Origin: a virus
Length of the DNA stretch: 38,765 nt
Direction: 5' to 3' (one strand)
IMG/VR virus record: IMGVR_UViG_3300042988_002205
Coordinates: 1-38,765 of that record
A program made the position numbers and the translations under genes. This document shows positions 12,074-31,570 of this stretch, in pieces (position 1 is the first letter of the stretch; each line of letters opens with the position of its first letter). The notes under the pieces are model-generated. The model was not told the origin of the DNA. It saw nothing but the letters and a program-made list of their open reading frames with translations, and made no database searches.

Positions 12074-12577
12074 ATGATCACGATCACAAGCACAGAGACA
12101 TTGGACAGCGCGGCGGGCGACCTGGTCCGCAAACGCATCGCCCTCACGCAGGCCAAGGCGGCGATGGAGGGCGAGATGGCCGGCGTCGAGAAGCGGCACG
12201 AGGAGCGCATCCAGACGATGCTGGACGATTGCGCGACGCTGGAGCGGGCCATCACGGCCTACACGGACGCGCATCGGGCGGAGGTGCTGGGCGAGAAAAA
12301 GAGCCGGGAAACGCCGCTGTGCGTGTTCGGGTTCCGGCTCGCGACGAGCGTCCAGACGGCCACGAAGAAACTGAAGTGGGCCGAGGTCATTGACCGGATG
12401 ATGCGGCACGGCGCGGAGAAGTATCTGCGCTACAAGGAGCCGGCGGTGAACAAGCAGGCGCTGCTGGAGGACAAGGACATGCTGAGCGAAAAGGAGTGCG
12501 AGAAGATGGGCATCCGCTTCGAGACGAGTGACGAGTTTTACCTGACGCCGAAACCAGAAACGGCGCAGAACAACTGA
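12074..12577 (+). CDS. gam: Host-nuclease inhibitor, Mu Gam-like
   Basis: 167 residues, close to Mu Gam (174). The N-terminal half is a long coiled coil (about 15-75), as in Gam dimers that encircle DNA ends. The C-terminal half has the family pattern: FGFRLAT, a W-x-x-V helix (KWAEVIDRMMRHGAEKYLR), then K-E-P-A-V-N-K-Q-A-L-L and a final GIRFETSDEFYLTPK strand pair. Gam coats double-strand ends and blocks exonucleases such as RecBCD during phage growth. In this phage it lies upstream of the transposase, whereas in Mu it follows A and B. Confidence 0.85.
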   Translation: MITITSTETLDSAAGDLVRKRIALTQAKAAMEGEMAGVEKRHEERIQTMLDDCATLERAITAYTDAHRAEVLGEKKSRETPLCVFGFRLATSVQTATKKLKWAEVIDRMMRHGAEKYLRYKEPAVNKQALLEDKDMLSEKECEKMGIRFETSDEFYLTPKPETAQNN

Positions 12578-12604
12578 ACCACGAAACACACGAACCACAC
12601 GAAA
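12577..12604 (+). repeat. CACGAAA 9-mer repeat, copy 2
   Basis: AACCACGAAACACACGAACC followed by ACACGAAA, between the Gam stop and the next ATG at 12617. It begins on the last base of the Gam stop codon. Confidence 0.8.
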
Positions 12605-12616
12605 GGCAAAGAAGAC

Positions 12617-13612: not shown

Positions 13613-14211
13613 CTGAGAACCAACGCAAGCGGCTTTACTTTCCGGCCTGGGGCCGCGCGTTCGCGGCGAACTGGTCGTGGGCCGGCAAGCGGCTCACGCG
13701 CACGGCGCCGGACAGCGAATGGAACACGCTGGTCGAGACCACCGCGGAGCGGCACCTCGGGCCGGAGTGCCGGGCAACGACGCCGGACGACCTGCGCCAC
13801 GCAGCGAATGCACTCGCCGTGGCGCGGGCGTCCGGTCATCGCCGGGAGCCACGGCGCGAAGGGCCGGCGCGGGCGGCGGATTTCGTGGACCGCTACGATC
13901 TGAGCCTGGGGCTGTTCGTGGTGCTGTGCGGGCTGCTGGAGGATCCCGACACGCTGGGCAATTTCCGGCCGCCCTCGGGCCGACTGGCGTGGACGGACCC
14001 CGGCTTGATCGAGCGGCATTACATCCTGGGCAGCATGGAGCGGCGGTGCCGGGAGAGTTACGTGGTGCGGCTGGTGCAGGACATCACGCGGGGCCAGGTG
14101 AGCAGCCCGGACGATCTGGATTTGCCGCGGCTGAAAGCGGTCTGGCGCACGCTGGGGCAACGGGGGAATGCGTGGACGGATGCGGCGCCGGTGGAGGCGA
14201 GGCCGTTTTGA
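13609..14211 (+). CDS. Hypothetical early protein
   Basis: 200 residues from the ATG overlapping the previous stop (an in-frame extension upstream would overlap further). It opens RKRLYFPAWGRAFAANWSWAGKRL, a pattern I have seen in phage early proteins of unknown role. Residues about 100-175 are helical with a conserved-looking RRCRESYVVRLVQDITRG stretch. Function unknown. Confidence 0.55.
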   Translation: MTENQRKRLYFPAWGRAFAANWSWAGKRLTRTAPDSEWNTLVETTAERHLGPECRATTPDDLRHAANALAVARASGHRREPRREGPARAADFVDRYDLSLGLFVVLCGLLEDPDTLGNFRPPSGRLAWTDPGLIERHYILGSMERRCRESYVVRLVQDITRGQVSSPDDLDLPRLKAVWRTLGQRGNAWTDAAPVEARPF

Positions 14212-14212
14212 G

Positions 14213-14240
14213 AACCACGAAACACACGAACCACACGAAA
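14213..14240 (+). repeat. CACGAAA 9-mer repeat, copy 3
   Basis: Near-identical to the 12577 copy. Its last A is the A of the next gene's ATG. Confidence 0.8.
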
Positions 14241-14419: not shown

Positions 14420-14428
14420 CCCGAGAAG

Positions 14429-14456
14429 AACCACGAAACACACGAAACACACGGAA
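14429..14456 (+). repeat. CACGAAA 9-mer repeat, copy 4
   Basis: AACCACGAAACACACGAAAC followed by ACACGGAA, 6 bases before the ATG at 14463. Confidence 0.8.
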
Positions 14457-14462
14457 GCCGAC

Positions 14463-15612: not shown

Positions 15613-15815
15613 AGGCCGATCCGCGCCGCGCCAACCAGGTGAAGGAGATGACGAACGCCGCGGGAAAAATCCTTGGGACCGTGAAGGCGCAGCTCGAATA
15701 CTCACTCATGAAGGGCGAGGAACCAGAGATCCCGTTCATGGGGCCAACCAGCGGCGTCAAGCTGCGCCACGTCCCGAAACTCTCGCCGCCGACGGAACCC
15801 GCGATTGAAGTCTGA
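15549..15815 (+). CDS. Hypothetical small early protein
   Basis: 88 residues starting MSKPTNINELRDQLLDAFDWVKADPRRANQVKEMTNAAGKILGTVKAQLEYSLM, a helical core typical of small conserved phage proteins of unknown role, with a proline-rich tail. It begins inside the 3' end of the previous gene. Confidence 0.6.
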   Translation: MSKPTNINELRDQLLDAFDWVKADPRRANQVKEMTNAAGKILGTVKAQLEYSLMKGEEPEIPFMGPTSGVKLRHVPKLSPPTEPAIEV

Positions 15816-15870
15816 AATAGGCCGCCGCGCGCAAAGAACTAGCGAGCTACTAACCCATGATGAAACTGAT

Positions 15871-17919
15871 ATGACCGCTCCCCGATTCACGTCCGCCGGT
15901 GTGTTGCCGGAAGAGAGTTCCGCTGTGCGTTCTATGGATTGCGCGCAGGCTGGCGTGGAGGGATTCGCCAGTCGCACGGGAGATGTCCCGCATGAAGCAG
16001 AGGCGGGCGTGAGTCGGGGAGCGGTGGAAGGGGAGAAATTGGGGACGGCGTGGAAGCCATCCCTACCGGGGAATGGAGAAGTCCCGGCCTTCACGGCGGC
16101 GGACATGGAGGCCGGTGCGCGGCGCGTGGCGCTGGTGCGCCGGGCGCGGGAACTCCGGGCACAGGGGATGTCATGGGCGGCCACGGCGGCGGCGATGGAC
16201 CTGCCGATGGGGAGTATTTTCAAATTGTGCGAGCGGGCGGCGCATTTGTCCGACCCGACGGCTTGCGACATGGCCACGCGGAGCAGCCGGACCGCGGCGC
16301 GGCGCGAGGCGCACGCGACGGCGCTCTCGGCGAACCAGGTGGCGGCGGTGCGGCGGTGGTTGCTGCTGTCGAATCGCGATTGGAAATCCGGCAGCATGGC
16401 CGAGGCGGTGCGGCAGGCGATTCGCGCGGGCGATCTGCCGGCGGACCTCGGCGAGCGGATGCTGGCACGCGAGGCGGATGGGCTGCCTATTCTTACTCAG
16501 GCGCAGCGGAACCAGTTGCGCATCGGCGAGGCGACGACGCGCTCCTTCCGCAACGGTCGCGAGGCTTGGCTGGACTACATCGAGTCTCCGGGCAGCCTCA
16601 TGCTGTGGACGGACCCAGAGACGGGCGAGGAGCGGCCCATCGAACCCGGCGAGGTGTGGACGCTGGATGACGGCACAATCAATCTCGTTTGCTGCGTGCC
16701 CACCGACGATCCGCAGTGGCCGCACAAGGTGATGCCGGGCCGGTTCCAGTTTTTGTTGTTGGTGGACCACCGCTCGCAGTTCATCCCCGGCTTTTCCTAC
16801 ACGGCGCGGCCGCGGGACTCCTACCGGGCCGAGGATCTGGTGGCGACGATTGATATCGCGGCGCGCGAACACGGGCTGCCGCGGCGGATGGTGCTGGAGA
16901 AGGGCGTGAGCGCGTCCACGGCACTGACGCGGTGCCTCGGGCTGGCCGGGGTGCAGATCATTCGGGCGAACTCGCCGCACGAGAAGGTCGTCGAGGGAGT
17001 GTTCAACCAACTCTGGACGCGGCTGTCGTTTCTGCCGGGCCAGGTGGGGCGCTATCGCGGCGAGGAGGAGCGGGTGACGGCCCTGCTGCAATCCTGCCGG
17101 GCTGGCGCAACGGACCCGCGGCGGCATTTTATGATGCTGGCGGACGTGCTGCGGGAGATCCGCGGAGTGATCGCAGAGCACAACGACCATTGGATCAACG
17201 GCAGCCGATACGGTCGGTGGCAGCCGGGCGAGTTTTTCGCTCGCGAGGCGGGCAAACACTTGCGGCGCGTGGCGGCGGAAGATCGCTGGCTGTTCGCGCC
17301 GTTCGTGAGCGACCCGTTGAAGGTGAGGAAACTTCTGCTGCAAACGACCGTGCCGCTGGCGGAGGGATTTTCGGAGCGGTTTTCGTTCGCGGCGACGTGG
17401 CTGGTGGACTGGCTCGGGGCCTCGGTGCGGCTGCATTGGAATCCATTCGCGGCGGACGAATACGCGACGGCGACGCTGGCGGGCGCTTTCGGCGGTCACC
17501 GGGACGGCGCAGTGCTGGGCCGGCTGGAGATGACCGACCGGCACGCGCGCTGGACGCGGCGGGCGTGGGGCTACAGCGACGCGGCAGACGCGGGCACCGG
17601 CCCGGTGCGTCGGGCGGCCCAGGCGCTGCACCGGAGCGCGGAGGCGATTCGGCCGGATGGCAAGCCGGGCGTCCGCGAGGCGACGGTGCGGAGTGGCACC
17701 GGGGAAGGGGCGACGATTTCGACGGGCGAGCAAAATGATGGGGACGCGGTGGAACGCATCCCTACCAGGGCCATCCCGGCGCCGCGCCGGGCGCTGGACA
17801 ACGCGCCTCGGCGCGATCTGAGCCAATTCGATCCCGGTGACTTGCTGGGGTCCGACAATAAAACCGAAACCCTGCAGCGATGCCGCGTCGAGGAATTCGA
17901 TGCCGCGGCGCTGCTTTAA
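15871..17919 (+). CDS. MuA-like transposase (DDE recombinase)
   Basis: 682 residues (Mu A is 663). An N-terminal helix-turn-helix (about 90-120: ARELRAQGMSWAATAAAMDLPMGSI) binds phage ends. The rve catalytic core follows: FLLLVDHRSQ (D299), LEKGVSAS where the second acidic residue appears to be Glu (E343), and EKVVEGVFNQLW (E375). A mu-type C-terminal beta-barrel and a basic tail come next. It catalyses strand transfer and replicative transposition. The start ATG 15871 is chosen; TTG 15805 and ATG 16105 are alternatives. Two palindromic repeats are inserted in frame (16041 and 17740), both outside the core. Confidence 0.88.
   Translation: MTAPRFTSAGVLPEESSAVRSMDCAQAGVEGFASRTGDVPHEAEAGVSRGAVEGEKLGTAWKPSLPGNGEVPAFTAADMEAGARRVALVRRARELRAQGMSWAATAAAMDLPMGSIFKLCERAAHLSDPTACDMATRSSRTAARREAHATALSANQVAAVRRWLLLSNRDWKSGSMAEAVRQAIRAGDLPADLGERMLAREADGLPILTQAQRNQLRIGEATTRSFRNGREAWLDYIESPGSLMLWTDPETGEERPIEPGEVWTLDDGTINLVCCVPTDDPQWPHKVMPGRFQFLLLVDHRSQFIPGFSYTARPRDSYRAEDLVATIDIAAREHGLPRRMVLEKGVSASTALTRCLGLAGVQIIRANSPHEKVVEGVFNQLWTRLSFLPGQVGRYRGEEERVTALLQSCRAGATDPRRHFMMLADVLREIRGVIAEHNDHWINGSRYGRWQPGEFFAREAGKHLRRVAAEDRWLFAPFVSDPLKVRKLLLQTTVPLAEGFSERFSFAATWLVDWLGASVRLHWNPFAADEYATATLAGAFGGHRDGAVLGRLEMTDRHARWTRRAWGYSDAADAGTGPVRRAAQALHRSAEAIRPDGKPGVREATVRSGTGEGATISTGEQNDGDAVERIPTRAIPAPRRALDNAPRRDLSQFDPGDLLGSDNKTETLQRCRVEEFDAAALL
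16041..16067. repeat. Palindromic element in the transposase N-terminal region
   Basis: GGGGACGGCGTGGAAGCCAT followed by CCCTACC, with one mismatch between arms. It is preceded by GAGAAATTG, as in the copies at 5006 and 9817. Confidence 0.7.
17740..17766. repeat. Palindromic element in the transposase C-terminal tail
   Basis: GGGGACGCGGTGGAACGCAT followed by CCCTACC, one base from the terminase copy. It encodes DGDAVERIPTR. Confidence 0.75.
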
Positions 17920-17930
17920 TTGGAGCAAAC

Positions 17931-19070
17931 ATGAAAACGGAGCCAACTGAATCGCCTGAAATTACCGACCCGAACGCGCGCATGGTCCAGCCAGTGCGCG
18001 CCACCTGGCCATTCAGCAGTGACACGCTGCTGGAGAATATGGCCACCTACACCGAGGAGACGCGCGAGACCATGCTCGCCTGCTTCCGCTGGTGCATTGA
18101 TCCCAAGCACCTGGTCAGCCGGCAGGAATTCGCCCGGCGGGTGGACTATCACGAGACGAACGTGTGGAAGTTTTTCGCCGGGCGCTACCTGCACCCGGAA
18201 ACCAAGGTCCCGGAACCGCCACCGGAGAAGTTCCTGCGGGCCGCCCGGCAATTTCTCAAGCTTGAGCGCGAGCGTTACGAGGGCGGGAGGACGGTGTTTG
18301 TGGCCACCCAGACCAGCCAGCGCATCAACACCTTTTTTGACCTGGTGCGGGAGAGCAGGAGCATGGGCGTGATGTGGGGGCCGAGTCATGTGGGCAAGAC
18401 GTGGGCGGCGGAGGAATATCGCCAGGGCAACAATCACGGCCGCACCATTTACGTGCGGATGCACGCGGCCAGCGGACTGGGCGGCATGGTGCGCCGGATC
18501 GCGGACTGCCTGGGAATCAGCGACAACGCAAACACGGCCGCCCTGGTGGAGCGCATCAAGCGGGGACTGACGGTGGACACGCTGTTGATTCTCGACGAGT
18601 GCCACCTGCTGGCCAACACCTACCGGGCGAACAGCTTTTTCGCCTGCATCGAGGTGATTCGTGAAATCCACGATGAATCTGGCTGCGGGATGGTGTTGAT
18701 CTGGACGCGCATTGACTCGCTCAAGCAGGCCAGCGGGCGCGAGCTGCAGCAGGTTTGGCGGCGGGGCGTCCACAAGCTGTCCCTGCCCCCCAGCCCCACT
18801 AGGGCGGATGTGGCCGCCGTCCTGGCCGCCTCGGGTTTGCGGTTCCCGGAAAAAGGCTCGCGGGTCAAAGTAGGCAAAGTCGAGGAGGATCCTGCCGCCG
18901 TGCTGGCGCAGGTGGCCAAAGGAGAGGGATTGAAGGCGATCACCGAGCGGTTGCGCTATGCCCGAAAGCTGGCCAACAAGGGCAGCGGGGTGCTGACCTG
19001 GGAGGATTTCATCAAAGCGCACCTGACGATCTTGAGCCAAGCAACGCCGCCCGAAGACGACTGGGCCTAG
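17931..19070 (+). CDS. MuB-like AAA+ ATPase, transposition target selector
   Basis: 379 residues. The N-terminal helix-turn-helix (about 58-85: LVSRQEFARRVDYHETNVWKFFAGRY) precedes a AAA+ domain with Walker A GPSHVGKT (about 150-157) and Walker B LLILDECHLL (about 218-227). The C-terminal helical domain ends GSGVLTWEDFIKAHL. MuB-type ATPases coat target DNA, activate MuA and give target immunity. It starts 11 bases after the transposase stop, the usual A-B operon order. It is somewhat longer than Mu B (312). Confidence 0.88.
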   Translation: MKTEPTESPEITDPNARMVQPVRATWPFSSDTLLENMATYTEETRETMLACFRWCIDPKHLVSRQEFARRVDYHETNVWKFFAGRYLHPETKVPEPPPEKFLRAARQFLKLERERYEGGRTVFVATQTSQRINTFFDLVRESRSMGVMWGPSHVGKTWAAEEYRQGNNHGRTIYVRMHAASGLGGMVRRIADCLGISDNANTAALVERIKRGLTVDTLLILDECHLLANTYRANSFFACIEVIREIHDESGCGMVLIWTRIDSLKQASGRELQQVWRRGVHKLSLPPSPTRADVAAVLAASGLRFPEKGSRVKVGKVEEDPAAVLAQVAKGEGLKAITERLRYARKLANKGSGVLTWEDFIKAHLTILSQATPPEDDWA

Positions 19071-19271: not shown

Positions 19272-19273
19272 AA
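19246..19273 (+). repeat. CACGAAA 9-mer repeat, copy 5, abutting the attC array
   Basis: AACCACGGAACACACGAAAG followed by GCACGAAA. Its last bases run into the R'' box of the first attC site, so the left edge of the array is at or inside this repeat. Confidence 0.75.
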
Positions 19274-19363
19274 AGAACGAATCAAGATGAGCCACGGCGC
19301 ACACACTGACCCCAGCCCCGCTGGCAACGGCCCCGAGCCGTTGGCTCCATCGCCTGGTTCGGC
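19272..19363 (+). other. attC site A (integron cassette recombination site, first of array)
   Basis: A 92-base site ending in R' GTTCGGC (19357-19363). Inner arms GATGAGCCACGGC (19286 on) and GCCGTTGGCTCCATC pair as a hairpin with two unpaired bases on one arm (the extra G and A). These are the extrahelical bases diagnostic of attC. Its outer R'' box is AAAGAAC rather than the GCCGAAC expected to pair with GTTCGGC, so this first site is imperfect. Confidence 0.75.
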
Positions 19364-19493
19364 GCACGGGAAGGCGCTCGAAACATTCGCCATTCTGGCA
19401 GACTTCTATCAAGAGGCGACACGCCGCTACCTGGCAGAGCTAGAGCGCGAGGAAAAAAGCAAAACTCCGAGTGCGCCGAACGACAAAAGCTGA
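19287..19493 (+). CDS. Cassette 1 ORF, start inside attC-A
   Basis: 68 residues. The first 24 or so (MSHGAHTDPSPAGNGPEPLAPSP) are encoded by the attC site and the rest (ETFAILADFYQEATRRYLAELEREEKSK) by the cassette. The cassette part is one charged helix. The stop lies in attC-B. Function unknown; the cassette size is about 118 bases. Confidence 0.5.
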   Translation: MSHGAHTDPSPAGNGPEPLAPSPGSAHGKALETFAILADFYQEATRRYLAELEREEKSKTPSAPNDKS

Positions 19494-19566
19494 GCGACCG
19501 GCGCAGACAAACCTATGAACAACACGACAAACGCCCCCGCCGGTTCGCTCCAGCGACTTGTTCGGC
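19475..19566 (+). other. attC site B
   Basis: 92 bases with R'' GCCGAAC (19475-19481) and R' GTTCGGC (19560-19566) exactly complementary. Arms GCTGAGCGACCGGCG and CGCCGGTTCGCTCCAGC pair with two extrahelical bases (G and A). The loop holds an ATG (19515). Almost identical to attC-C. Confidence 0.85.
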
Positions 19567-19571
19567 GATGA
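19515..19571 (+). CDS. attC-encoded 18-residue leader peptide
   Basis: MNNTTNAPAGSLQRLVRR is encoded wholly by attC-B. Its TGA (19569-19571) overlaps the ATG of the cassette 2 ORF as ATGA, the typical arrangement for translational coupling. The same peptide is encoded in attC-C. There is no direct proof of translation. Confidence 0.45.
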   Translation: MNNTTNAPAGSLQRLVRR

Positions 19572-19846
19572 GACTCAAACCAACAGCGGGCCAACGGTGG
19601 CGCGTGAGTGTGTATCCTCCCGGAGTGACAGACAACCTGCCGGCAGAATACCCACTGGCCCACAAGGCCAGCCGCGAGCAGGCGACCGCCCAGACACACT
19701 TCGACCGCTTCGCGGCGCAGATCGGCGGGGGAAAGGTAGGGCGCGTCATCATGCACCAGGGCAAGCTCTACTCGGGATGCTCGCAATACCTGCACAACGA
19801 CACGCAATGGTGGCCGGACCGGTATTCACCGAACGACCAAAGCTGA
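19568..19846 (+). CDS. Cassette 2 ORF, hypothetical protein
   Basis: 92 residues starting 2 bases after the R' box of attC-B. The sequence MRLKPTAGQRWRVSVYPPGVTD, then KASREQATAQTHFDRFAAQIGGGKVGRVIMHQGKLYSG reads as a small alpha/beta fold. No family recognised. It ends in attC-C, so it is a textbook cassette: one promoterless gene plus one attC. Confidence 0.7.
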   Translation: MRLKPTAGQRWRVSVYPPGVTDNLPAEYPLAHKASREQATAQTHFDRFAAQIGGGKVGRVIMHQGKLYSGCSQYLHNDTQWWPDRYSPNDQS

Positions 19847-19919
19847 GCGACCGGCGCAGAAAAACCTATGAACAACACGACAAACGCACCCGCCGGTTCG
19901 CTCCAGCGCCTTGTTCGGC
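19828..19919 (+). other. attC site C
   Basis: 92 bases. R'' is ACCGAAC (19828-19834) and R' is GTTCGGC (19913-19919), with the same arms as attC-B and both extrahelical bases. ATG at 19868 in the loop. Confidence 0.85.
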
Positions 19920-20035
19920 GTTTCTTCTTTCGCTGCCACCGATGCCACCGGATCAAATTTGGTTTCAGGCTGCGGCTTTGGAACAGCGGAGCCTGGCGGG
20001 TCTGCAAACCATGCGACGATGAGACCCCGTTTTGA
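19868..20035 (+). CDS. Cassette 3 ORF, small zinc-ribbon-like protein with attC-encoded N-terminus
   Basis: 55 residues. The first 18 (MNNTTNAPAGSLQRLVRR) come from attC-C; the cassette adds FFFRCHRCHRIKFGFRL then VCKPCDDETPF. The CHRC ... CKPC pair is a four-Cys zinc ribbon with a short basic and aromatic middle. The cassette is only about 130 bases, among the smallest possible. The stop falls just before attC-D. Function unknown; a nucleic-acid-binding zinc ribbon is plausible. Confidence 0.6.
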   Translation: MNNTTNAPAGSLQRLVRRFFFRCHRCHRIKFGFRLRLWNSGAWRVCKPCDDETPF

Positions 20036-20036
20036 C

Positions 20037-20128
20037 GCCGAACGACAAAAGATGAGCCACGGCGCACACACTGACTCTAGCCTCGCTGGCAACGGCTCCG
20101 CGCCGTTGGCTCCATCGCATGGTTCGGC
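20037..20128 (+). other. attC site D
   Basis: 92 bases. R'' GCCGAAC (20037-20043) and R' GTTCGGC (20122-20128). Arms GATGAGCCACGGCGC and GCGCCGTTGGCTCCATC pair with two extrahelical bases. It is the same type as attC-A, but with an intact R''. Confidence 0.85.
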
Positions 20129-20303
20129 GACACGGCTGCAATACAGAGTCGTCTCACGATATGCAACCCGCATCAGCCGTTTGGAAGGCCCGTACGATTT
20201 CAGGGCGGCACTGGAGCTGGCGGCTGGACGCATACTCATGGGCGACACCAGCGTGACAATCGAAGAAATCGAAGGTTCGCCGAACGAGAAAGGTCAGCGA
20301 TGA
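20052..20303 (+). CDS. Cassette 4 ORF, start inside attC-D
   Basis: 83 residues. About 25 N-terminal residues (MSHGAHTDSSLAGNGSAPLAP) come from the attC, then the cassette adds LQYRVVSRYATRISRLEGPYDFRAALELAAGRILMGD and TSVTIEEIEGSP, a compact beta-alpha-beta pattern. Function unknown. The stop lies in attC-E. Confidence 0.6.
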   Translation: MSHGAHTDSSLAGNGSAPLAPSHGSATRLQYRVVSRYATRISRLEGPYDFRAALELAAGRILMGDTSVTIEEIEGSPNEKGQR

Positions 20304-20391
20304 GCCGAGAATTACCACCATGCGACCATGACGAGTGCCCGCCCACGCACTGCAAGCGCCCCGGCTCATTCGCTGAACCGTCTTGTTCTAC
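20279..20391 (+). other. attC site E
   Basis: 113 bases. R'' GCCGAAC (20279-20285) and R' GTTCTAC (20385-20391). Arms GGTCAGCGATGAGCCG and CGGCTCATTCGCTGAACC pair with two extrahelical bases (T and A). ATG at 20300 within the arm. Confidence 0.8.
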
Positions 20392-20530
20392 AGCACCAGG
20401 CCAACGCCGCGAGATCGAAGTGGAGTGGCAACATGATGAGACAGGGGCGCGGTTCACAAAACGAATCCCCGAAGGTGAGGCCATCCCGGCATTTAGTCGG
20501 CGGTCCATTATCGCATGGCGGGTGCTGTAG
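20300..20530 (+). CDS. Cassette 5 ORF, start inside attC-E
   Basis: 76 residues. About 30 come from the attC (MSRELPPCDHDECPPTHC...), then the cassette adds GQRREIEVEWQHDETGARFTKRIPEGEAIPAFSRR, a small beta-rich domain. The TAG stop lies inside the R'' box GTAGAAC of attC-F. Function unknown. Confidence 0.55.
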   Translation: MSRELPPCDHDECPPTHCKRPGSFAEPSCSTAPGQRREIEVEWQHDETGARFTKRIPEGEAIPAFSRRSIIAWRVL

Positions 20531-20634
20531 AACGATGAAAGCTGAGCGACAGCCCACAGCGCCGCAGGAGACGCCGCCCTTGCCGATGACGCAACTCGGC
20601 GCTGTGGGCTGTTCGCTCCAGCGCATGGTTAGCC
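20527..20634 (+). other. attC site F
   Basis: 108 bases. R'' GTAGAAC (20527-20533) pairs with the R' of the previous site (GTTCTAC), as a cassette should. R' is GTTAGCC (20628-20634), a good GTTRRRY consensus match. Arms GCTGAGCGACAGCCCACAGC and GCTGTGGGCTGTTCGCTCCAGC form the longest stem of the array, again with two extrahelical bases (G and A). Confidence 0.88.
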
Positions 20635-21254
20635 GTCCGTCGAATGTCCTGAACCTCTATGCCGGAGTCGGCGGAAACCGGAAACTCTGGCAAGACGTGA
20701 ACGTGTCCGCCGTGGAGAACGATCCGAAAATCGCGGCGGTATATCAACGGCTGAACTCGGCTGACACCGTGATAATCGGGGACGCGCACGCCTACCTCCT
20801 GGAGAACTACCACCGCTTTGACTTTATCTGGACAAGTCCGCCGTGCCAGACGCACTCGAAGACGGCGAAGGCCACGCGGCACGCGCTGAAACGCTACCCG
20901 GACATGAGCCTCTATCAGCAAATCATCTTCCTGCGAACCTACGCAAAATGTCCGTGGGTCGTGGAAAACGTCGTGCCCTATTACACGCCGCTGATACCGC
21001 CAACGAAGCAAATCGGGCGGCATCTGTTCTGGTCGAACTTCGATTTCGAGGCGTCGGAAGTGCCAACGCCTCCGAACTTCATCAACAGGTGCAATGTGGT
21101 GGGCAAGCTGGCGATGCAAGACTGGCTCGGCATCCGCTACCCGGAAAACATCTACTACGGCAGCAACCACTGCCCCGCGCAAATACTCCGCAACTGCGTC
21201 CACCCGCTGCTAGGCGCGCAAATACTGGCAGCGGCGAGGACGGCTAACAGATGA
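20625..21254 (+). CDS. Cassette 6: DNA (cytosine-5) methyltransferase
   Basis: 209 residues. C5 methyltransferase motifs are in order: motif I LNLYAGVGG (9-17) for AdoMet, the acidic EN at 31-32, motif IV SPPCQ with catalytic Cys at about 74, motif VI ENV (114-116), and a reduced motif VIII GRHLFWSNF (131-139). It is short for the family (usually over 300), as in compact phage methylases, with a small recognition domain. The likely role is protection from host restriction. ATG 20625 spans the R' box of attC-F; an in-frame ATG at 20535 would add 30 attC-encoded residues. Confidence 0.85.
   Translation: MVSRPSNVLNLYAGVGGNRKLWQDVNVSAVENDPKIAAVYQRLNSADTVIIGDAHAYLLENYHRFDFIWTSPPCQTHSKTAKATRHALKRYPDMSLYQQIIFLRTYAKCPWVVENVVPYYTPLIPPTKQIGRHLFWSNFDFEASEVPTPPNFINRCNVVGKLAMQDWLGIRYPENIYYGSNHCPAQILRNCVHPLLGAQILAAARTANR
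21242..21248 (+). other. Terminal R'' box GGCTAAC of the array
   Basis: The exact complement of R' GTTAGCC in attC-F, so it marks the end of the last cassette. No inner arms or R' box follow within about 150 bases. The last attC is therefore truncated, and this is the right edge of the array. Confidence 0.6.
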
Positions 21255-21565
21255 GTATGGCGAAGCGTACGCATTCGCGGCGGGTCTGTAGCAAGATCCG
21301 GCTTGCGACGCTGGCGCGAATGCGCGAGGCGAAGGCGCGGCGACGGGAGGCGCGGATCGCAGCGGGCTGGACACCGGAGCCGAAGTTCGCGCGGTGGTTC
21401 CCAATGGAAATCGGGTTTCGCGACCGGAGCAGCGGCGAGGTCGCATGGACGGAGTTGCGGAGCGTCCGGCAGGCGGCCCGGCTGTCGAGCCGGATGCTGC
21501 GGGAGTGGTCCGCGACGCCGGCGCAGTGGCGCCGCAGGGGCGCGGCAGAGAGCGCGCACAAATAG
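21251..21565 (+). CDS. Hypothetical basic protein after the array
   Basis: 104 residues, rich in Arg and Ala (RLATLARMREAKARRREARIAAGW), then EVAWTELRSVRQAARLSSRMLREW, which could be a helix-turn-helix. It overlaps the methyltransferase stop by 4 bases (ATGA). It may be the start of the phage backbone after the array, or part of the last cassette. No family recognised. Confidence 0.45.
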   Translation: MSMAKRTHSRRVCSKIRLATLARMREAKARRREARIAAGWTPEPKFARWFPMEIGFRDRSSGEVAWTELRSVRQAARLSSRMLREWSATPAQWRRRGAAESAHK

Positions 21566-21612: not shown

Positions 21613-22638
21613 GTGACCCCTAATTCCGTCTCCCTCCGCACCACCGCCGGCCAGGCATCGCCGGCCAGGGGCGCGGACGCGCTGCCCGAGCGGCTCAAGC
21701 TGCTGGCCTGGGGTGCGAATGATTCCATCTACGGGACGATCACGCTGGACGCGGAATCAGTAGCGGCCTTTGCGGCGAAACAGCGCAGCATCGGGCGCGA
21801 ACGCATCGCCCTCGATTTCGAGCACAACACCGTCGAGGGGACGCCGGAATGGCAGAACTCTGAGGAGCCGCGGAAGATCGCCGCCCAGGGGACGCCGGTG
21901 CTCGTGCCGGGCGAGGGGCTGTTCCTGGAGAATCTGACCTGGACGGAAACCGGCCGCGCCTCGGCCAAGGACTTTGAGGATCTGAGCCCGGCCGTCTTCC
22001 TCGACGGCGAGGGGCGCGTGCTGGCGATCCACTCCGCCGCATTGACCCGCACCGGCGCCGTTCACGGCCTGACGGTGCAACCGCTGAGCAGCTCCCTCGC
22101 TCGCGAACTCACGACGCTTTCCGCCGGGATCCCGGCAACAACCACACCCACGAAATCTATGGACGAACCGAAACCGGCAGCGGCCCCCGATATGGCCGAC
22201 ATCATCAAGCGCATCGAGGCCCTCGAAGGGCTGATCAATTCGCTCAAGGCCCCGACCGACGCCGGGGAAATCAAGGCGCTTTCCGCCCAGGTGGCCGAAC
22301 TCGTGACCGCCCGCAAGGCTGCCGAGGCGACCACCGAGCAGACCCAGCGCGAGAACCTCATCGCCCAGGCGAGCCGCGAGGGGAAGGTGATCCCGCTCTC
22401 CGCCGCTGCTTTGGCTATCACGCCGCTCCTGGTGCTGACCGACCTGGTCGGGCAGCTCAAGCCCGGTGTGGTCCCGCTGAGCGCGACGGCCAAGCCCGCC
22501 GGCGCCCCGAGCACGTTCTCGGCTGCCGTCACGGACAAAATGAAAGCCGGCCTGTCGAAGGCGAAGGCGGTCGCGGTCTGCGTGGCCGAGATGCCGGATG
22601 CCTACAAGGACTGGCTCAAAAACGACGGCAAAATCTAA
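21613..22638 (+). CDS. Prohead protease with C-terminal scaffold (Mu gpI/Z-like)
   Basis: 341 residues (Mu I is 361). The N-terminal protease half has the U35-type pattern: LKLLAWGAND, RIALDFEHNTVEGTPEW (His and Glu near residue 75), G.P.LVPGEGLF.ENLTWT, and a final DLSPAVFLD.EGRVLAIHSAALTRTGAVHGL with the conserved S/H. The C-terminal half is a coiled-coil scaffold ending AMPDAYKDWLK-like (EMPDAYKDWLKNDGK). GTG start. An in-frame ATG at 22159 probably gives a separate scaffold, as Mu Z does within I. Confidence 0.85.
   Translation: MTPNSVSLRTTAGQASPARGADALPERLKLLAWGANDSIYGTITLDAESVAAFAAKQRSIGRERIALDFEHNTVEGTPEWQNSEEPRKIAAQGTPVLVPGEGLFLENLTWTETGRASAKDFEDLSPAVFLDGEGRVLAIHSAALTRTGAVHGLTVQPLSSSLARELTTLSAGIPATTTPTKSMDEPKPAAAPDMADIIKRIEALEGLINSLKAPTDAGEIKALSAQVAELVTARKAAEATTEQTQRENLIAQASREGKVIPLSAAALAITPLLVLTDLVGQLKPGVVPLSATAKPAGAPSTFSAAVTDKMKAGLSKAKAVAVCVAEMPDAYKDWLKNDGKI
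22159..22638 (+). CDS. Probable internal scaffold protein (Z-like), nested in the protease gene
   Basis: An in-frame ATG at the protease-scaffold junction gives a 159-residue protein starting MDEPKPAAAPDMADIIKRIEAL with a coiled coil. In Mu the scaffold is made from an internal start in I. The sequence shows only that the start is possible. Confidence 0.5.
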   Translation: MDEPKPAAAPDMADIIKRIEALEGLINSLKAPTDAGEIKALSAQVAELVTARKAAEATTEQTQRENLIAQASREGKVIPLSAAALAITPLLVLTDLVGQLKPGVVPLSATAKPAGAPSTFSAAVTDKMKAGLSKAKAVAVCVAEMPDAYKDWLKNDGKI

Positions 22639-22679
22639 GCCGCTCACCCACAACCACCATTCTGATCTGAGTCAAATAT

Positions 22680-23378
22680 ATGGCTACCACTTCAACCAAT
22701 GAGTCCGGCTACCGGGCTTTCCAGGCGACCGCGGTCGCCCTTGAACAATTCGTCCGCGTCACTGTGGACAGCGCCGGCCTGATCTCCGTCGCCGGCGAAT
22801 CCGACCTCGGCGTCGGCGTCACCCAGGAGGCGGTCGCCGCCTCCGGCTGGGGCACGGTCAAACTCTGGTCCGCGCCCGGCACGTTCCACGTCCAGGCTGG
22901 CGGCCCCGTCACCCGCGGCGCGCAACTCTACGCCGCGGCCAGTGGCGAGGTGGACGACAGCGGCACCTACAAGCTCCGCCTGGTCGCCCTCGAAGCCGCC
23001 GCCGCGCAGGGCGACGTGATCGAGGTCGCCGTCGTGCAGGACGCCACCTACGGCAGCGGCAACTACGTCAGCACCGACGTGGCCGCCCTGACGGCCACCG
23101 GCAGCGCCATCGGCAACGCCGCTCAAATCGTGGCCAAGGTCAGCTACGCCACCGGCGACGACACGGTCGGGGTCAAGCTGCCCAACGCCGTCGCGGGCTT
23201 GGTGTACGAGGTGTACAACCTCGCCGCCACGGCCGGGCTCAAGGTGTATCCCGCCGCCAACGATGACATCAACGACGGCACGACCAACGCCGCGGTGGTT
23301 CTAGAAGGCAAGACCCTCGGCCGGTTTGTTGCCCTCGATGGCGTCACCTGGGCCGCGCAGTTCACCGCGAACAGCTAA
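22680..23378 (+). CDS. Capsid decoration protein, DUF2190-like with extra C-terminal domain
   Basis: 232 residues. Residues 1-125 follow the DUF2190 decoration pattern (a beta-tulip: AVALEQFVRVTVDSAGLISVAGESDLGVGVTQEAV, then TVQ-like APGTFHVQAGGPVTRG, then VIEVAVV). Residues about 140-230 are a separate beta domain (VGVKLPNAVAGLVYEVYNLA, then GLKVYPAANDDINDG, then GVTWAAQF) found on many phage head surface proteins. It sits between scaffold and major capsid. It presumably binds capsid trimers and may display a surface domain. Confidence 0.75.
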   Translation: MATTSTNESGYRAFQATAVALEQFVRVTVDSAGLISVAGESDLGVGVTQEAVAASGWGTVKLWSAPGTFHVQAGGPVTRGAQLYAAASGEVDDSGTYKLRLVALEAAAAQGDVIEVAVVQDATYGSGNYVSTDVAALTATGSAIGNAAQIVAKVSYATGDDTVGVKLPNAVAGLVYEVYNLAATAGLKVYPAANDDINDGTTNAAVVLEGKTLGRFVALDGVTWAAQFTANS

Positions 23379-23387
23379 CCAACTCCC

Positions 23388-23414
23388 GGCCAGGCGGGCT
23401 GGTCCCGCCCGGCC
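23388..23414 (+). other. Strong hairpin between decoration and major capsid genes
   Basis: GGCC-A-GGCGGG pairs with CCCGCC-C-GGCC around a 5-base loop, with no T-run after it. It probably protects or separates the very abundant messages rather than ending them. Confidence 0.5.
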
Positions 23415-23440
23415 ACTTTCCAACTTTTCCCAACTAAAAA

Positions 23441-24409
23441 ATGAGTTTTTCACCTACCTCTGGCGCTACCATCCGTAGCGACCTCAATGTGCTCGTGCAG
23501 GAAGCTGCGAGCGCGGACAAGTTCTTCATCGGCTTGCAGGCCATGCCGGACTTCGGCGTGGATGGCAAATCCGGCACCTATCCCAAGCTGCAGCTCGCCG
23601 CGGGCGGCCTGCTGGACAACATCGCCACCGAACGCACCAGCACGGGCACCTATGGCCGCGTGACCCGCCAGTGGACCACCGACACCTACGACACCATTGA
23701 CCGCGGCCTGGAGGAGCTGGTCGGCGACACCGACGCGGCTGATACGGCGCGGTTCTTCGACGCCGAGGCCACGGCCGCGAAGCTCTGCCTCCGCAACGTC
23801 ATGCTGGCGCACGAGGTCCGAGCCGCCACGGCGCTGATCAACGCCACCACGTTCGGCGCGGGCACCAACAGCGCTGTCGCGTACACCGAGGCCAACATCG
23901 CCACGATCTCCTTCGTGGCGGACGTGCTGGCCGCCATCGAACGCGTGCGCGACAACGGGCACAACCCCAACACGGTCATCCTGAACAGCACGGTTTACAA
24001 CCGCATCCGCCGGGCCACCCCGGTGACGGCCTTTGTGGCCGGCCAGGTGGGCAAGGGCGCGAGTGTCACGCAGTCCTCGCTCGCGCAGGCGTTCGCGGAC
24101 GAGGGCATCAGCCAGGTGCTCGTGGGCCGCGCCCGCTACAACAGCGCGAAGAAGGGCCAGACCTTTAGCGCGGCCAGCGTGTGGGGTGTCACTTACGTCT
24201 GGGTGGGCGTCTGCAATCCCAGCGCGGCCACCATGCAGGACGGCGGCGCCGGCTTCACGCTCCGCTGGAATGCCGAAGGCGGCATCTGGGTGAGCGAGTC
24301 CTACCGGGACGACAGCCGCCGGAGCAACGTGGTGCGCGTGCGCCAGAACACCGCGGAGAAGGTGGTGGACTCCACCGCCGGCACGCTGATCACCACGCAG
24401 TACGCCTGA
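23441..24409 (+). CDS. Major capsid protein (Mu gpT-like position)
   Basis: 322 residues, close to Mu T (305). It follows protease/scaffold and decoration genes and is followed by a strong terminator, as expected for the most abundant virion protein. Motifs consistent with an HK97-type capsid: the N-terminal helix ATIRSDLNVLVQEA, an E-loop-like GTYPKLQLAAGGLLDNIATER, a long spine helix AATAAKLCLRNVMLAHEVR, PNTVILNSTVYNRIRR, and a final P-domain strand set ending WVSESYRDDSRRSNVVRVRQ. Codon use is more C-rich at third positions than in neighbours, in line with high expression. Confidence 0.85.
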   Translation: MSFSPTSGATIRSDLNVLVQEAASADKFFIGLQAMPDFGVDGKSGTYPKLQLAAGGLLDNIATERTSTGTYGRVTRQWTTDTYDTIDRGLEELVGDTDAADTARFFDAEATAAKLCLRNVMLAHEVRAATALINATTFGAGTNSAVAYTEANIATISFVADVLAAIERVRDNGHNPNTVILNSTVYNRIRRATPVTAFVAGQVGKGASVTQSSLAQAFADEGISQVLVGRARYNSAKKGQTFSAASVWGVTYVWVGVCNPSAATMQDGGAGFTLRWNAEGGIWVSESYRDDSRRSNVVRVRQNTAEKVVDSTAGTLITTQYA

Positions 24410-24423
24410 CCCTGACCTTTCAC

Positions 24424-24456
24424 GGGCGCGGCGGGTCACTCCGCCGCGCCCTTTTT
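24424..24456 (+). terminator. Strong rho-independent terminator after the major capsid gene
   Basis: An 11-bp perfect stem GGGCGCGGCGG / CCGCCGCGCCC, loop of six, then TTTTT. It ends only 4 bases before the next ATG, so downstream genes depend on read-through or another promoter. Confidence 0.9.
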
Positions 24457-24460
24457 CACA

Positions 24461-25213
24461 ATGGCAACGAACCTACCACCTGACATCCAGGTCGCATTGA
24501 TCTCCTACAAGGGGGTGCATGAGCAGACGCTGCTCATGTATATGGGCCTGGTCGAAGCGTTCCTCCGCCGCGGCGGAGGTAATATAGTACCCATCTGGAA
24601 CGATGCGCTGATCTGCCGGTCGCGCTCGCGCGTCGTCTCCGGCCTGCTGCCTGATCTCATTGGCGCGGGCGACCAGCGCGGCGGCGATGTGATGGTGTTT
24701 CTGGACCATGACGTCGAGGTCAGCCCCGAGGACGTTTTGAAGCTGGGGGAAATGGCGGTCGAACAGGACGCGATTATCGGCATCCCTTACGCCCTGCGGG
24801 ATCCGTTGCGGCGGCGATGGGCCGGGCGCATCGAAGGCGGCAAGATGCCGTGCGTGGGGCAGGACGTGGTGATTGACGCGCACCTGATCCCGACGCTTAT
24901 GGCCGTGCCCGCTCGGGCGCTGCGGCAGATTTGGGGCGCGTGCTCGATCAGTCGCGACCCGGCGCTGAAGGTCACGCGGTGCAAGGACAACGCGGTGCCA
25001 GGCTGGACGCATTTCGTGGATTTCTTCCGGCCCATGCCGGTGCAAAGCCCGGAGGGGGATTGGGAATATCTGAGCGAGGAATGGGCCTTCTGCCATCGGG
25101 CTCGGGCGGCCGGCGTCCCGGTCAGGCTGTGGCTGAAGCCGACGGTAAGGCACCACGGAAGCTACCCCTACACGATGCCCGAGGTGCCACCCGCAACGGA
25201 GGCAAAGCCGTGA
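24461..25213 (+). CDS. GT-A type glycosyltransferase in the head module
   Basis: 250 residues. The N-terminal half reads like a GT2/GT-A nucleotide-sugar fold: VALISYKGVHEQT, an RSRVVSGLLPDLI helix, then VMVFLDHDVEVSP with the D-x-D metal motif (about residues 81-85). The C-terminal YLSEEWAFCHRARAAGVPVRLWLKP.VRHHGSY is the usual acceptor-side ending of phage-borne glycosyltransferases (S-E-E-W/D-x-x-F). It could modify capsid or fibre proteins, or the host surface. There is no room for a ribosome-binding site after the terminator, so its start or regulation is unusual. Confidence 0.7.
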   Translation: MATNLPPDIQVALISYKGVHEQTLLMYMGLVEAFLRRGGGNIVPIWNDALICRSRSRVVSGLLPDLIGAGDQRGGDVMVFLDHDVEVSPEDVLKLGEMAVEQDAIIGIPYALRDPLRRRWAGRIEGGKMPCVGQDVVIDAHLIPTLMAVPARALRQIWGACSISRDPALKVTRCKDNAVPGWTHFVDFFRPMPVQSPEGDWEYLSEEWAFCHRARAAGVPVRLWLKPTVRHHGSYPYTMPEVPPATEAKP

Positions 25214-25260
25214 AGCCGAATTCTCGAAACCATTTGCTGCGCGCGAGGGTAGGTCTTCTC

Positions 25261-25287
25261 CCCAGGACCGTTGCCCCTGGGTCTTTT
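25261..25287 (+). terminator. Rho-independent terminator after the glycosyltransferase
   Basis: Stem CCCAGG / CCTGGG around a 9-base loop, then TCTTTT. Together with the 24424 terminator it isolates the glycosyltransferase as its own unit. Confidence 0.75.
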
Positions 25288-25315
25288 ACCGCTCCGCGCG
25301 CAGTTCCTTTCTGAC

Positions 25316-25693
25316 ATGACTCCCGACGACCTCCAACTCACTCCCCGGCTGCAGGAGCAACTGCAGGGCGGGCTGGCGTCCGCGGGGATCCCGAACGGGC
25401 TGGAGCAGTGCATCACCGAATGCGCGGCCACCGTCGCCCGCTACGTCGTGGGACACACGTTCACGGCGACGGAGACGGATGGCTGGACGCGGACGCTGGC
25501 CGTCCACATGGCGTTCGTGCGGGCGCACTTCGGCGTGCCGAAGGAAAAGGCGGACGCGGCGGAGGCGGTGATGACGGAACTCCGGGCGATCCGGGACGGT
25601 AAATTCCGGCTGGCTGAATCCACGGAATCCCCGGCCCGGCTGCCGGGCGCGGCCGTGACGGAGGACTCTGATCTGGACGGGGCTTTGCGATGA
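25316..25693 (+). CDS. Head-tail connector protein, Mu gp36-like (DUF1320 type)
   Basis: 125 residues, mainly helical, starting MTPDDLQLTPRLQEQLQGG, with a helical segment CITECAATVARYVVGHTFT and then WTRTLAVHMAFVRAHFGVP. Length, helical pattern and position right after the head genes match the DUF1320 connector or gp6-like family. An earlier frame start at 25271 is disfavoured because it would run through the terminator. ATGA overlap with the next gene. Confidence 0.65.
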   Translation: MTPDDLQLTPRLQEQLQGGLASAGIPNGLEQCITECAATVARYVVGHTFTATETDGWTRTLAVHMAFVRAHFGVPKEKADAAEAVMTELRAIRDGKFRLAESTESPARLPGAAVTEDSDLDGALR

Positions 25694-26157
25694 CGATCCG
25701 CGAACAAATCGAGGCGTTGCAGGCGGGCCTGGCCGATTGGGTCACGGCCTACAACGTCCAGCTTTCCGTGGCGGCCTCGTCGGCGGATTTGCAGGCGTCG
25801 CTGGCGTCGGACCCGACGGGGCTCCAGGGGGCGCTGCTGTTCATCTCCGAGCGGCAGGACGAGGCGGGCGCGGACGCGGGTGTGGTGTGGCGATCCTTCC
25901 GGCTGGCGATCGCGCGGGGGCACGGGTGGACGGGCATCCGCAGCGAGAACCTCACGACGGAATCGCACGTGGGCGCGGCGTTGCTGGACGTGATCGAGGA
26001 CGCGCGGACGGCGCTGCTGAACGTGGATTTCGGGCTGGGCTACGAATACAAGCCGAGGTTGCAGGACGTGAGCATGGAGGACACCGGGGACGCGCCGGTG
26101 GACCTGTGGGTGGTGGAGATTTTGTGCGGGTCGAAACTGATTTACCCCGAAGCATGA
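25690..26157 (+). CDS. Probable tail-terminator or head-tail joining protein (Mu gp37-like position)
   Basis: 155 residues. It opens MTIREQIEALQAGLADWV, then an alpha/beta body, and ends YEYKPRLQDVSMEDTGDAPVDLWVVEILCGSKLIY. The final strand is typical of tail terminator proteins that cap the tail tube. Context (after DUF1320) fits Mu gp37 (DUF1834-like). Coupled by ATGA to the fibre gene that follows, which is unusual, since in Mu the tail sheath or tube comes next. Confidence 0.6.
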   Translation: MTIREQIEALQAGLADWVTAYNVQLSVAASSADLQASLASDPTGLQGALLFISERQDEAGADAGVVWRSFRLAIARGHGWTGIRSENLTTESHVGAALLDVIEDARTALLNVDFGLGYEYKPRLQDVSMEDTGDAPVDLWVVEILCGSKLIYPEA

Positions 26158-29100
26158 GGAACCGAATCACATGGCTGGTGGTGTGGGTGTGCCTGGTGCT
26201 GCTGGCGCCGGCCGCGGACGTGATTGTGACGCCGACGGATTTCCAACTTTCCTCGGCAACGGGGCGGCGGGTGACGCTCACGCCCACGGGCTCGCGGACG
26301 GATGGCTCGGTGATCACGACCATCGAGCCGCGGAGCCTGACGGTGACGAATGCAAGCGTGACCTTCAGCAACACCTTCGCGGGCACCTACAAACTGGACA
26401 TCTCGGGCGCGCCGCCGACGGCGCTGCGCATCCTGGTGCCGGATACCAACGGTGCGGTGAATGCGGCGACGGTGCTGGTGACGGCGACGAATGCGACAGA
26501 GGATGCCGCCGGCGCGGCGTGGAGCGCAGCGGCCAGCGACGCGCGATTCCAGATGGCGGCTGCCAACCTGACCAATTGGGCCGCACTCTCCACGAATGTG
26601 ATCGTGAGCGGCGGTCTGTCCTACATCCCGCAGGCCGGCTCGGCCAACCTCACCAACTGGTCCGCGCTACCCACCAACGCACTCGGCTCCGGCGGCGTAG
26701 CCATCGCAGCGGGCACGAACATGGTCGCCTCCACCAATGCCGGAGTGGTCACGCTGGGGACGCCATACGGCTGGGGTTATCAAGGCGCGAACACATGGAT
26801 TTGGTACGGACCGGAGACGAATGAAATCCTTGAGACCCGGCCAGCCGGCCCCCTGACTGGTCCAGTGCTCTACTTCAACCCGCTGCACATTTACGAGGCC
26901 ATTTCCTTCCAGGCGAAGGACTGGGGCGGAGTGGGCTACAAGCCCCGCATCACGTTGCAGATCGCCACGAACACGTGGCGCTTCTACGAGAAGCACCTGG
27001 AGGACGACCTTGGCAACCACCTGCTGCGCTACGAGACCAATAAAAACATGTGGCTGGGTGAGACCAACAGCACCGGGACCATCACCGCGCAAGGCACGCT
27101 GGCCACCACGGTCGGCGTGAAATCCCCGGCGCTTGAATTGCAGGAGTCAGGAGTGACCAAGATGAAGCTGACCAGCGCAGGCGATACGCTGACCATCGAG
27201 GACGGCGACGGCAATTACGTCGCGCTGGCAAACACCAACTCCTGGCAAAGCATCGTAAACTTTGCAGCACCGCTGGTTGTGGCTGACACATTTTCCGGCA
27301 GCGGAAGCGGTCTGACAAACCTCAGCATTCCGGGCCTTCCGACCGGCACCCCGGTTGAAACCCCAGCCGGATTCACCTTTCCGGTCAGCGTCATGGTATC
27401 GAACTGGTATGGGTTCTACGTCCCGTCCATTTCCGCGCTGGACTACCGGGACGCGGCGCGGGCGCAGACGTTTTTCATGTCCACGACCGGCAGCGACGCG
27501 GCCGACGGACTGACCGTTTCGACGCCGAAGGCAACGCTATCTAACGTAGTTGCGACGGCGACGGCGAGCTTCCGGGTCTATATCGCGGCGGGTGCTTACG
27601 CGACGGTGCCAGCGTCGGAGACTAACCTAGTGACCATCACCACAAACGCGACGCTGCTGTGCACGAATGGCTTTGCGACGCTTGGTCCGATTGAATCTAC
27701 AAACTCGCTGCACGTTGAGAACTGCACGTTCATCAGCGGAATTCGCAACGCGCTTCGCTGGACGAACGCCGACGCGGACGCCCGCCTGTCGGTCTATCGC
27801 TGCACGTTCGGGCCGTCAACGGAGGATGGGTTTGCGGTGTTGGCCGATGCTGGACTTGTCGTAGCGGAGGAAAGCATGGCAAGTAGCAACCGACTGGACG
27901 GTTTCAACTACCACAAGTCCGGCGCCAGCACGTTAGCTGGTGCGATTGAAATTCGATGCGTTGGGATGCGCAACGGCACGACCGGAGGCACTGCGAATAA
28001 CGGCAGCACAATTCACGATGGGTTCAGGATCATTCGCGTCAACGGGCAGTATTTTGAGAATGAAAACCGCAACATTCACGACATCGGCGCCGGAGGGATG
28101 TCATGGAATCTGGGCTGCGTAGCAGGCGCGTCGCTGTTGCCGGGTGCGGATTCTGACGTTGGGTTCGCGGTTGGCGTCGGGGCCGACAACACCATGATGT
28201 GGTTGCAGGACTGCGGAGTGGTTGGAGGTTCGGTGCGGACCTACAACTACGGGGACGGCAGCGCAACGCTGACCGACTGGCTTCCGCGCGCTCCTGGCCT
28301 GACGCTGTTTCCGAACGTCGCGCAACTGACGGTGAGCAGCAACGTGACGCTGGGCACTATGAGCCTGCTGGCGGCGGACACCTACACCTCAATGCAGGCG
28401 GAGGTATATCGCACGCGGTTGGGTTATCGCGCCGGACAATCCACCGGAACCAGCAACAACGCTGTTCAGTTGGGCGGCTACGCAGGACAAAATTCCACAA
28501 CCGCAATCGGCGCCGTTCAGGTCGGTGCGCTGGCCGGTCAGTATTCAAGCACGGCAAACAGTGCCGTGCAGGTGGGTTACGAGGCCGGCATCCGATCCAC
28601 TACCGCAACCGGAGCCGTGCAGGTTGGGCAGCGTGCCGGGCAATACCAGACCGCGGGAACATACGCGGTGGCTGTCGGCTTTGAGGCTGCGGCGCAGGCG
28701 AGCAATTCCACCTACTCCGTGAATGTGGGCTACCGCGCAGGGCTGGATGCAACACCTACAACTGGCAGCGTGTTCATCGGAGCGAACGCAGACGGGCCTT
28801 CCAACGCGACGGCAACCAACGCCATTGCGATTGGCCACAACGCGGCGGTCACCAACAACAACCAGACCGTCATTGGCAACGCAAACACAACCCAGACCGT
28901 GATGCATGGTGTCGTGACGGGAAACGGCAGCGGGCTGACCGGACTACTCGCAAGCGATGGCTACGGGGTAGCGTCCAGCAATTGGGTGCTCGGCCAGATT
29001 GCCAGCATCGGGACGCACATTTACAGCTCCGGCGTGACGAATCCGGCTGCGCTGTGGGATGGCGCCGCGAACAAGACCAACATCTTTTACGGCAGCAACT

Positions 29101-30293: not shown

Positions 30294-30297
30294 TCCC

Positions 30298-31552: not shown

Positions 31553-31570
31553 ACTGAACCAATTAACTTT

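Follow-up and report, generated by a model that had tools for sequence, protein, structure and literature searches.

An array of six integron cassettes with genes opposed to their attC sites, between MuB and the prohead protease of a Mu-like phage

We analyzed the complete 38,765-base IMG/VR record IMGVR_UViG_3300042988_002205 (hereafter the window), a Mu-like phage genome in which six integron recombination sites (attC) lie between the genes for the MuB-type transposition protein and the prohead protease, accompanied by five short open reading frames (ORFs) and a C5-cytosine DNA methyltransferase gene [Table 1]. A reading made from the letters alone (the sequence-only reading) had proposed an integrase-free cassette array at this place; Pfam and phrog matches to MuB and the protease confirm its position, and the cassette ORFs do run in the direction of phage transcription, as had been claimed. 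MuA, MuB and Mu-type head genes (phrog_310, phrog_296, PF10123, and phrog_1005) identify the backbone as Mu-like. No recognized host flanks are present in the record, and all contigs compared in this study are metagenomic.

The six sites were recovered by two approaches. A rule-based finder, which looks for R boxes (AAC...GTT), two single extrahelical bases 5-6 bp apart on one arm only, and an L stem, returned exactly six attC sites for the window, every one on the minus strand, versus 1 match in ten order-1 Markov windows of equal size (0.1 per window). A covariance model trained on 26 attC sites, all from contigs other than the window, matched the same six sites, again all on the minus strand, at 45-74 bits and with E-values of 2.1e-10 to 2.6e-18, which are rough owing to a short calibration; the best other match in the window had an E-value of 0.07. 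The training sites were picked by a rule demanding an inner stem, so that their 100% inner pairing is partly by construction. On folding, five of the six sites formed the expected hairpin on the plus strand, which is the attC bottom strand, and site 1 was weaker. The six sites named in the sequence-only reading are thus borne out by the covariance-model and folding checks that it had suggested. An Rfam scan gave nothing relevant, Rfam holding no attC model, and searches for GTTRRRY/RYYYAAC cores gave no matches; most window cores are GTTCGGC, which is outside that consensus. Having at least two clustered attCs with R and L boxes, extrahelical bases, and a variable loop, the six sites qualify as a cluster of attC sites lacking an integron integrase (CALIN).

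The outer boxes of these sites carry a signature of cassettes. The two end boxes of one cassette stem from one circle and are expected to match even if the boxes of a hairpin do not match each other. In the window, 41 of 42 outer-box bases match across cassettes (7, 6, 7, 7, 7, and 7 of 7 for the individual cassettes) as against 33 of 42 within hairpins (4, 7, 6, 7, 5, and 4). For instance, GTTCTAC (20385-20391) pairs with GTAGAAC (20527-20533) as the two ends of one cassette, and GTTAGCC (20628) pairs with GGCTAAC (21242) as the two ends of the methyltransferase cassette. The complementary outer boxes that the sequence-only reading had ascribed to each site are therefore real only in part, as GTAGAAC/GTTCTAC, one of its examples, does not belong to a single hairpin and the outer box of site 1 (AAAGAAC) is mismatched. 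At the four variable outer positions of seven loci from six phage contigs, 182 of 192 bases match across cassettes and 151 of 220 within hairpins (p 2e-12). Since matching across cassettes exceeds matching within hairpins, we conclude that the arrays were built from circular cassettes.

Table 1. Features of the cassette array and of the neighboring phage genes in the window.
Feature	Position	Strand	Evidence and remarks
attC1	19272-19363	-	52.9 bits, E 1.7e-12; far array end; outer box mismatched
attC2	19475-19566	-	72.6 bits, E 5.8e-18; hairpin z -2.9
attC3	19828-19919	-	73.9 bits, E 2.6e-18; 96% identical to attC2 (repeat pair)
attC4	20037-20128	-	61.3 bits, E 8.1e-15; 90% identical to attC1 (repeat pair)
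attC5	20279-20391	-	45.3 bits, E 2.1e-10; hairpin z -4.0
attC6	20527-20634	-	46.6 bits, E 9.8e-11; hairpin z -5.0
intI/attI-proximal core box GGCTAAC (GTTAGCC on minus)	21242-21248	-	7/7 complementary to the box at 20628; no hairpin after it
Cassette 1	19278-19480	+	attC1 and ORF1 (19287-19493, 68 amino acids (aa); start inside attC1, end in attC2); limits inferred from core boxes
Cassette 2	19481-19833	+	attC2 and ORF2 (19568-19846, 92 aa)
Cassette 3	19834-20042	+	attC3 and ORF3 (19868-20035, 55 aa, two CxxC motifs; no match in Pfam)
Cassette 4	20043-20284	+	attC4 and ORF4 (20052-20303, 83 aa)
Cassette 5	20285-20532	+	attC5 and ORF5 (20300-20530, 76 aa); start overlaps ORF4 stop by ATGA
Cassette 6	20533-21247	+	attC6 and C5-cytosine DNA methyltransferase (start 20535, 20586, or 20625; end 21254); Pfam DNA_methylase 6.2e-9
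MuA-type transposase	15805-17919	+	phrog_310 3.1e-12
MuB-type transposition protein	17880-19070	+	phrog_296 2.8e-27, AAA_22; relatives 39-54% identical
104-aa ORF	21251-21565		Separates array from protease
Mu I-type prohead protease	21613-22638	+	PF10123 1.7e-14, phrog_328; next phage gene past the array
Major head protein	23441-24409		Listed among the Mu-like genes

By convention, the extra bases of an attC lie on its R''-L'' arm. In the window they are on the right-hand (3') arm of the plus strand, and therefore the attCs read on the minus strand and the ORFs on the plus strand. The sequence-only reading had rightly noticed two extra bases on one arm but overlooked that this arm sets the attCs opposite to the ORFs; the methyltransferase cassette, which it took for the last of the array, is by attC polarity the intI-proximal or 'first' one. 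Gene direction was scored by the longest ORF per cassette. The positive control, 15 stretches of array DNA from Verrucomicrobiota genomes, gave 126 cassettes whose gene ran with its attC and 10 whose gene ran the other way (n=136), whereas in the window the gene ran against the attC in five cassettes and with it in one (p 4e-5 for the window alone versus the chromosomal arrays). Five Mu-like phages including the window gave 11 genes against and 4 with the attC (n=15; p 2e-8), and eight further integrase-bearing loci gave 16 against and 1 with (n=17). An AT-rich viral contig (G013; L015/L055) with ordinary gene direction and an adjoining DNA polymerase III-like gene was excluded from the reversed set. 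The reversal implies that each unit consists of an attC followed by a gene, with the attC at the gene's 5' end. Indeed, ORF1, ORF3, ORF4, ORF5, and two of the three possible methyltransferase starts begin inside the attC of their own cassette. Ahead of ORF2 there is an 18-aa leader ORF (19515-19571) whose start lies in the loop of attC2 and whose end shares ATGA with the start of ORF2. A start is held by 67 of 78 phage attCs as compared to 61 of 112 chromosomal ones. The usual CALIN has co-oriented genes with the attC at their 3' side, and with five of six genes opposed we file the window array as a CALIN variant, an atypical member of that class.

The sequence-only reading treated the array as an isolated curiosity, which it is not. 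A MuB profile found 13 IMG/VR loci, most of them without attC in the DNA available for them. In at least ten Mu-like relatives, phages or prophages, MuA/MuB is followed by attCs, inverted every time, and several of these relatives have an intI of their own. Such downstream attCs of the same inverted polarity occur in G006, G019, G020, G021, the MuA-bearing G007 and G010, and G237, a prophage in a Verrucomicrobiota genome. G006 and G021 encode integron integrases (275.5 and 274.7 bits, above the NCBIfam TIGR02249 cut-off of 265), and the best solved structure for the former is the integron integrase 2a3v (1.9e-43, residues 8-315). The integrases of the relatives contain the IntI-specific insert and conserve the RKHRHY catalytic residues, as judged by eye from an alignment. 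In both G006 and G021, conserved genes of the Mu-like clade are present on either flank of intI, which places the integrase gene inside the phage. Searches with these two integrases yielded L194, L196/L197, and L202, which have MuA, attCs, and intI (MuB also in L194 and L202). In all 17 loci scanned, every attC was on the strand opposite to intI. An attI-like motif (AACAGT...CAA...GGTT) was found just upstream of intI in L194, L196, L199, and L202, and also beside the single cassette of L005, a phage contig described below; its 7 matches in 2 Mb, as against 1.3 expected by chance, include one unrelated match and two from the near-duplicates L196/L197.

The phage integrases are of two types, about 60-89% identical within a type and about 33% between types, and they are at most 44-47% identical to the integrases of the sampled Verrucomicrobiota genomes. 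They occupy two separate places in the tree, G021 being on a long branch. Arrays are also found in tailed phages without detected MuA, namely G008 (terminase, head protein, helicase), G012 (terminase, helicase, tail fiber), and G009 (head protein, helicase), which have about 11-17 attCs each (L039-L040, L042, and L044, respectively); reversed cassettes are the majority in G009 and G012. The G008 array has a connector gene on one side and the gene for the major head protein on the other. Two candidates were set aside: G025, although it has attCs and intI, was not counted as a proven phage because its tested proteins included no phage hallmark, and the IMG/VR contig G011 likewise has no phage hallmark in its tested proteins. 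The attC model gave no match in TJE1, a published phage CALIN, or in Virus Rctr41k. The annotated record of the latter (KX853513) has an IntI-like gene, annotated xerD, at 4680-5678.

The unit predicted from polarity was found in an unrelated phage. Genes for a T7-type RNA polymerase, a Gp2.5-like single-strand binding protein, and a T7-type endonuclease identify the 7.9-kb contig L005 as a T7-like phage. The C5 methyltransferase cassette of the window recurs in it as attC plus gene, with 90% identity over 715 bases; the left limit of the homology is just within the left box of attC6, and the right limit is two bases past the 21242-21248 box. In L005 the attC is upstream of the gene and the attI-like motif downstream. 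Another piece is shared by phage G009 and the Mu-like L194. A looser link joins G011, the phage contig L188, and one reversed methyltransferase cassette of a Verrucomicrobiales chromosomal integron, whose three proteins have the attC-encoded leader in common and are only about 45% identical overall. In a Verrucomicrobiales metagenome-assembled genome (MAG), we noticed one reversed methyltransferase cassette among the ordinary ones of a chromosomal integron, beside the chromosomal intI (L022, 4454-5212), and its attC-encoded leader is nearly identical to that of the T7-like phage. A cassette pool is thus common to unrelated phages and occasionally to a host chromosomal integron too. Methyltransferases recur in the reversed cassettes (C5 in the window and L005, MT-A70 in G008, N6/N4 in L188, and C5-like, just below the Pfam cut-off, in G012), which suggests a defense against restriction. 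The window has a second DNA methyltransferase gene, of N6/N4 type, outside the array (35453-36949).

Of 388 Verrucomicrobiota genomes, 51 contain a match to the MuB profile, with scores above 360 bits in five, and the best match of the profile in two other phyla, those of a Bacteroidetes MAG (277 genomes) and an Actinomycetes MAG (276 genomes), is 30 bits. The attC model matches 64 of 289 Verrucomicrobiota genomes. Verrucomicrobiota chromosomes carry large arrays of the same attC type (L148-L162), with more than 30 attCs in L149. The prophages make Verrucomicrobiota a well-supported host phylum for the phage family, and the host of the window itself probably belongs there as well.

Taken together, we consider it probable that the window carries a six-cassette array in a Mu-like Verrucomicrobiota phage, and that it represents a recurring phage-borne integron type with reversed cassettes whose intI was here lost or never present; of these two histories, we infer loss. 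Several observations weigh against this reading. No integron integrase is encoded in any frame of the whole 38.8-kb record (TIGR02249), as the sequence-only reading had stated, and from 21249 onward the window has no clear counterpart of the attI-like motif that accompanies phage intI genes. ORF1-5 are short, and ORF5 is the weakest ORF call, with no clear coding signal in either direction. Both G021 cassettes run with their attC by longest ORF, and phage G008 is mixed. Moreover, the protease-to-tail block is on the opposite side and strand relative to G010, which could reflect a rearrangement or a misjoin of the contig at 21.25-21.6 kb.

The sequence-only reading had assumed ordinary forward cassettes, gene then attC, in which case the arm bearing the extra bases would be incidental. 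ORF2 does start a few bases past a core box, as genes of ordinary cassettes do, and several ORFs end in the next attC; yet the independently trained model puts every site on the minus strand only, the polarity so defined agrees with the genes in the chromosomal control, and the single cassette of L005, with attC upstream and attI-like motif downstream, shows that the moving unit is the attC plus the gene. This makes forward cassettes very improbable. The array could instead be a passenger, a piece of host chromosomal integron acquired by chance and now decaying in the phage, as the lack of intI in the window and the abundance of this attC type in Verrucomicrobiota genomes would allow. The gene direction is, however, opposite to that of the chromosomal arrays, many relatives have this locus, always in one polarity, and the phage integrases are closer to each other within their clades than to the nearest sampled chromosomal ones, so that we regard a passenger as unlikely.

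If the hairpins had lost their recombination role and now acted at the level of RNA or translation to space short phage genes, this would fit the ATGA overlaps and the start codons inside attCs, which are more frequent in phages than in chromosomes. A translation role does not predict that boxes match better across cassettes than within hairpins, and the methyltransferase unit is present in the unrelated L005 and other pieces are common to several arrays; we consider this idea very improbable. The least probable of the explanations is that assembly falsely fused a chromosomal array with a phage, for which the placement of the protease block relative to G010 speaks. Against it, attCs of this polarity also follow MuA/MuB in other contigs and in one prophage within a 274-kb genomic contig, and a search for palindromic misassembly of the window found none, with no inverted repeat at the join. 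L196 likewise has its protease downstream of the array on the plus strand, which tempers the worry of a misjoin.

As to the arrangement of the window, portal and large terminase are in its left part (1-5244) on the minus strand and the genes from protease to tail (21613-38604) on the plus strand, whereas G010 groups all of them on one strand; the split is either a real rearrangement or a misjoin. Three near-identical 30-bp direct repeats upstream of MuA (12576-12605, 14211-14240, and 14427-14457) are candidate operator or transposase-binding sites. The window has MuA, MuB, Mu I-type protease, and major head protein in common with phage Mu and Mu-like prophages, and differs from them in the left-hand, opposite-strand terminase and portal and in the integron array between MuB and protease.

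For the reversed-cassette integron that we favor, the layout of the type would be MuA, MuB, inverted attC array, intI, and further phage genes. The mobile unit would be an attC and then an opposed gene. The attC would form the gene's 5' end, in most cases contribute the start codon, and often encode the N-terminus as well. An IntI from a relative or from the host may fold and recombine the attC bottom strand (the phage plus strand), with cassettes inserted beside an attI next to intI. The genes would be read from the phage operon running through MuA and MuB and not from an integron Pc promoter, and the cassette methyltransferases could protect phage DNA from host restriction. Mu replication runs from the MuA side rightwards. 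If it does so here, the plus strand would be the lagging-strand template, and recombination is favored when the bottom strand is that template (PMC5371416), which could explain the fixed polarity. We propose that fixed attC polarity combined with reading from the MuA-MuB transcript led to the reversal of genes within cassettes. On balance, we lean slightly toward the wider proposal that tailed phages of Verrucomicrobiota, Mu-like and others, have an integron system of their own, with phage-clade IntI, phage attI, reversed cassettes with the attC as 5' leader, and traded methyltransferases and accessory genes read from phage operons; in Mu-type replication, the fixed polarity of this system may make the attC bottom strand the template for the lagging strand.

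Integrons are regarded as bacterial (and archaeal) platforms that are sometimes picked up by phages. Phage-borne integrons and integrase-less cassette clusters are already known as a kind: Qi et al. (2023; PMC9892861) describe integrons and 17 CALINs in phages, temperate ones included, with methyltransferase cassettes, and report that 5 of 6 tested phage attCs recombined with attI1. The present arrays resemble these in being attC arrays in phage genomes, with or without intI, that include methyltransferase cassettes. The sequence-only reading knew of no described example carried by a transposable phage, but it left these published phage-borne integrons and CALINs unmentioned. None of the phages detailed in the main text of Qi et al. 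is transposable (their Shewanella M16-3 element is P2-like), and that text does not mention genes reversed relative to attC, a locus recurring after MuA/MuB, or a clade of phage IntIs. In the open-access literature, our searches turned up neither integrons in Mu-like phages nor arrays whose genes oppose the attC, nor any transposable-phage integron family with reversed cassettes. The sedentary chromosomal integrons of Verrucomicrobiota share the attC type and consensus, and intI diverges from the attC array in both, but their genes run with the attC and the phage genes against it. In the inverted integrons of the Treponema type (PMC3607928), transcription of intI proceeds in the direction of attI. 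The phage loci keep the ordinary divergence of intI and attC polarity, and the flip concerns only the genes inside the cassettes. As with ORF-11/ORF-17 of class 1 attI1 (PMC8876359), a recombination site encodes a short ORF able to couple translation to the next gene, except that in the phage arrays it is each cassette's attC that carries the coding, antisense to attC polarity.

If this reading is right, phages would be an active habitat of integrons, with their own integrases and with cassettes built the opposite way. Such phages would also be a mobile cassette source able to insert at many chromosomal sites, and would offer a way to test the expression of cassette genes without the usual Pc promoter. 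In essence, reversed cassettes would be a plausible route for phages to exchange anti-restriction genes fast.

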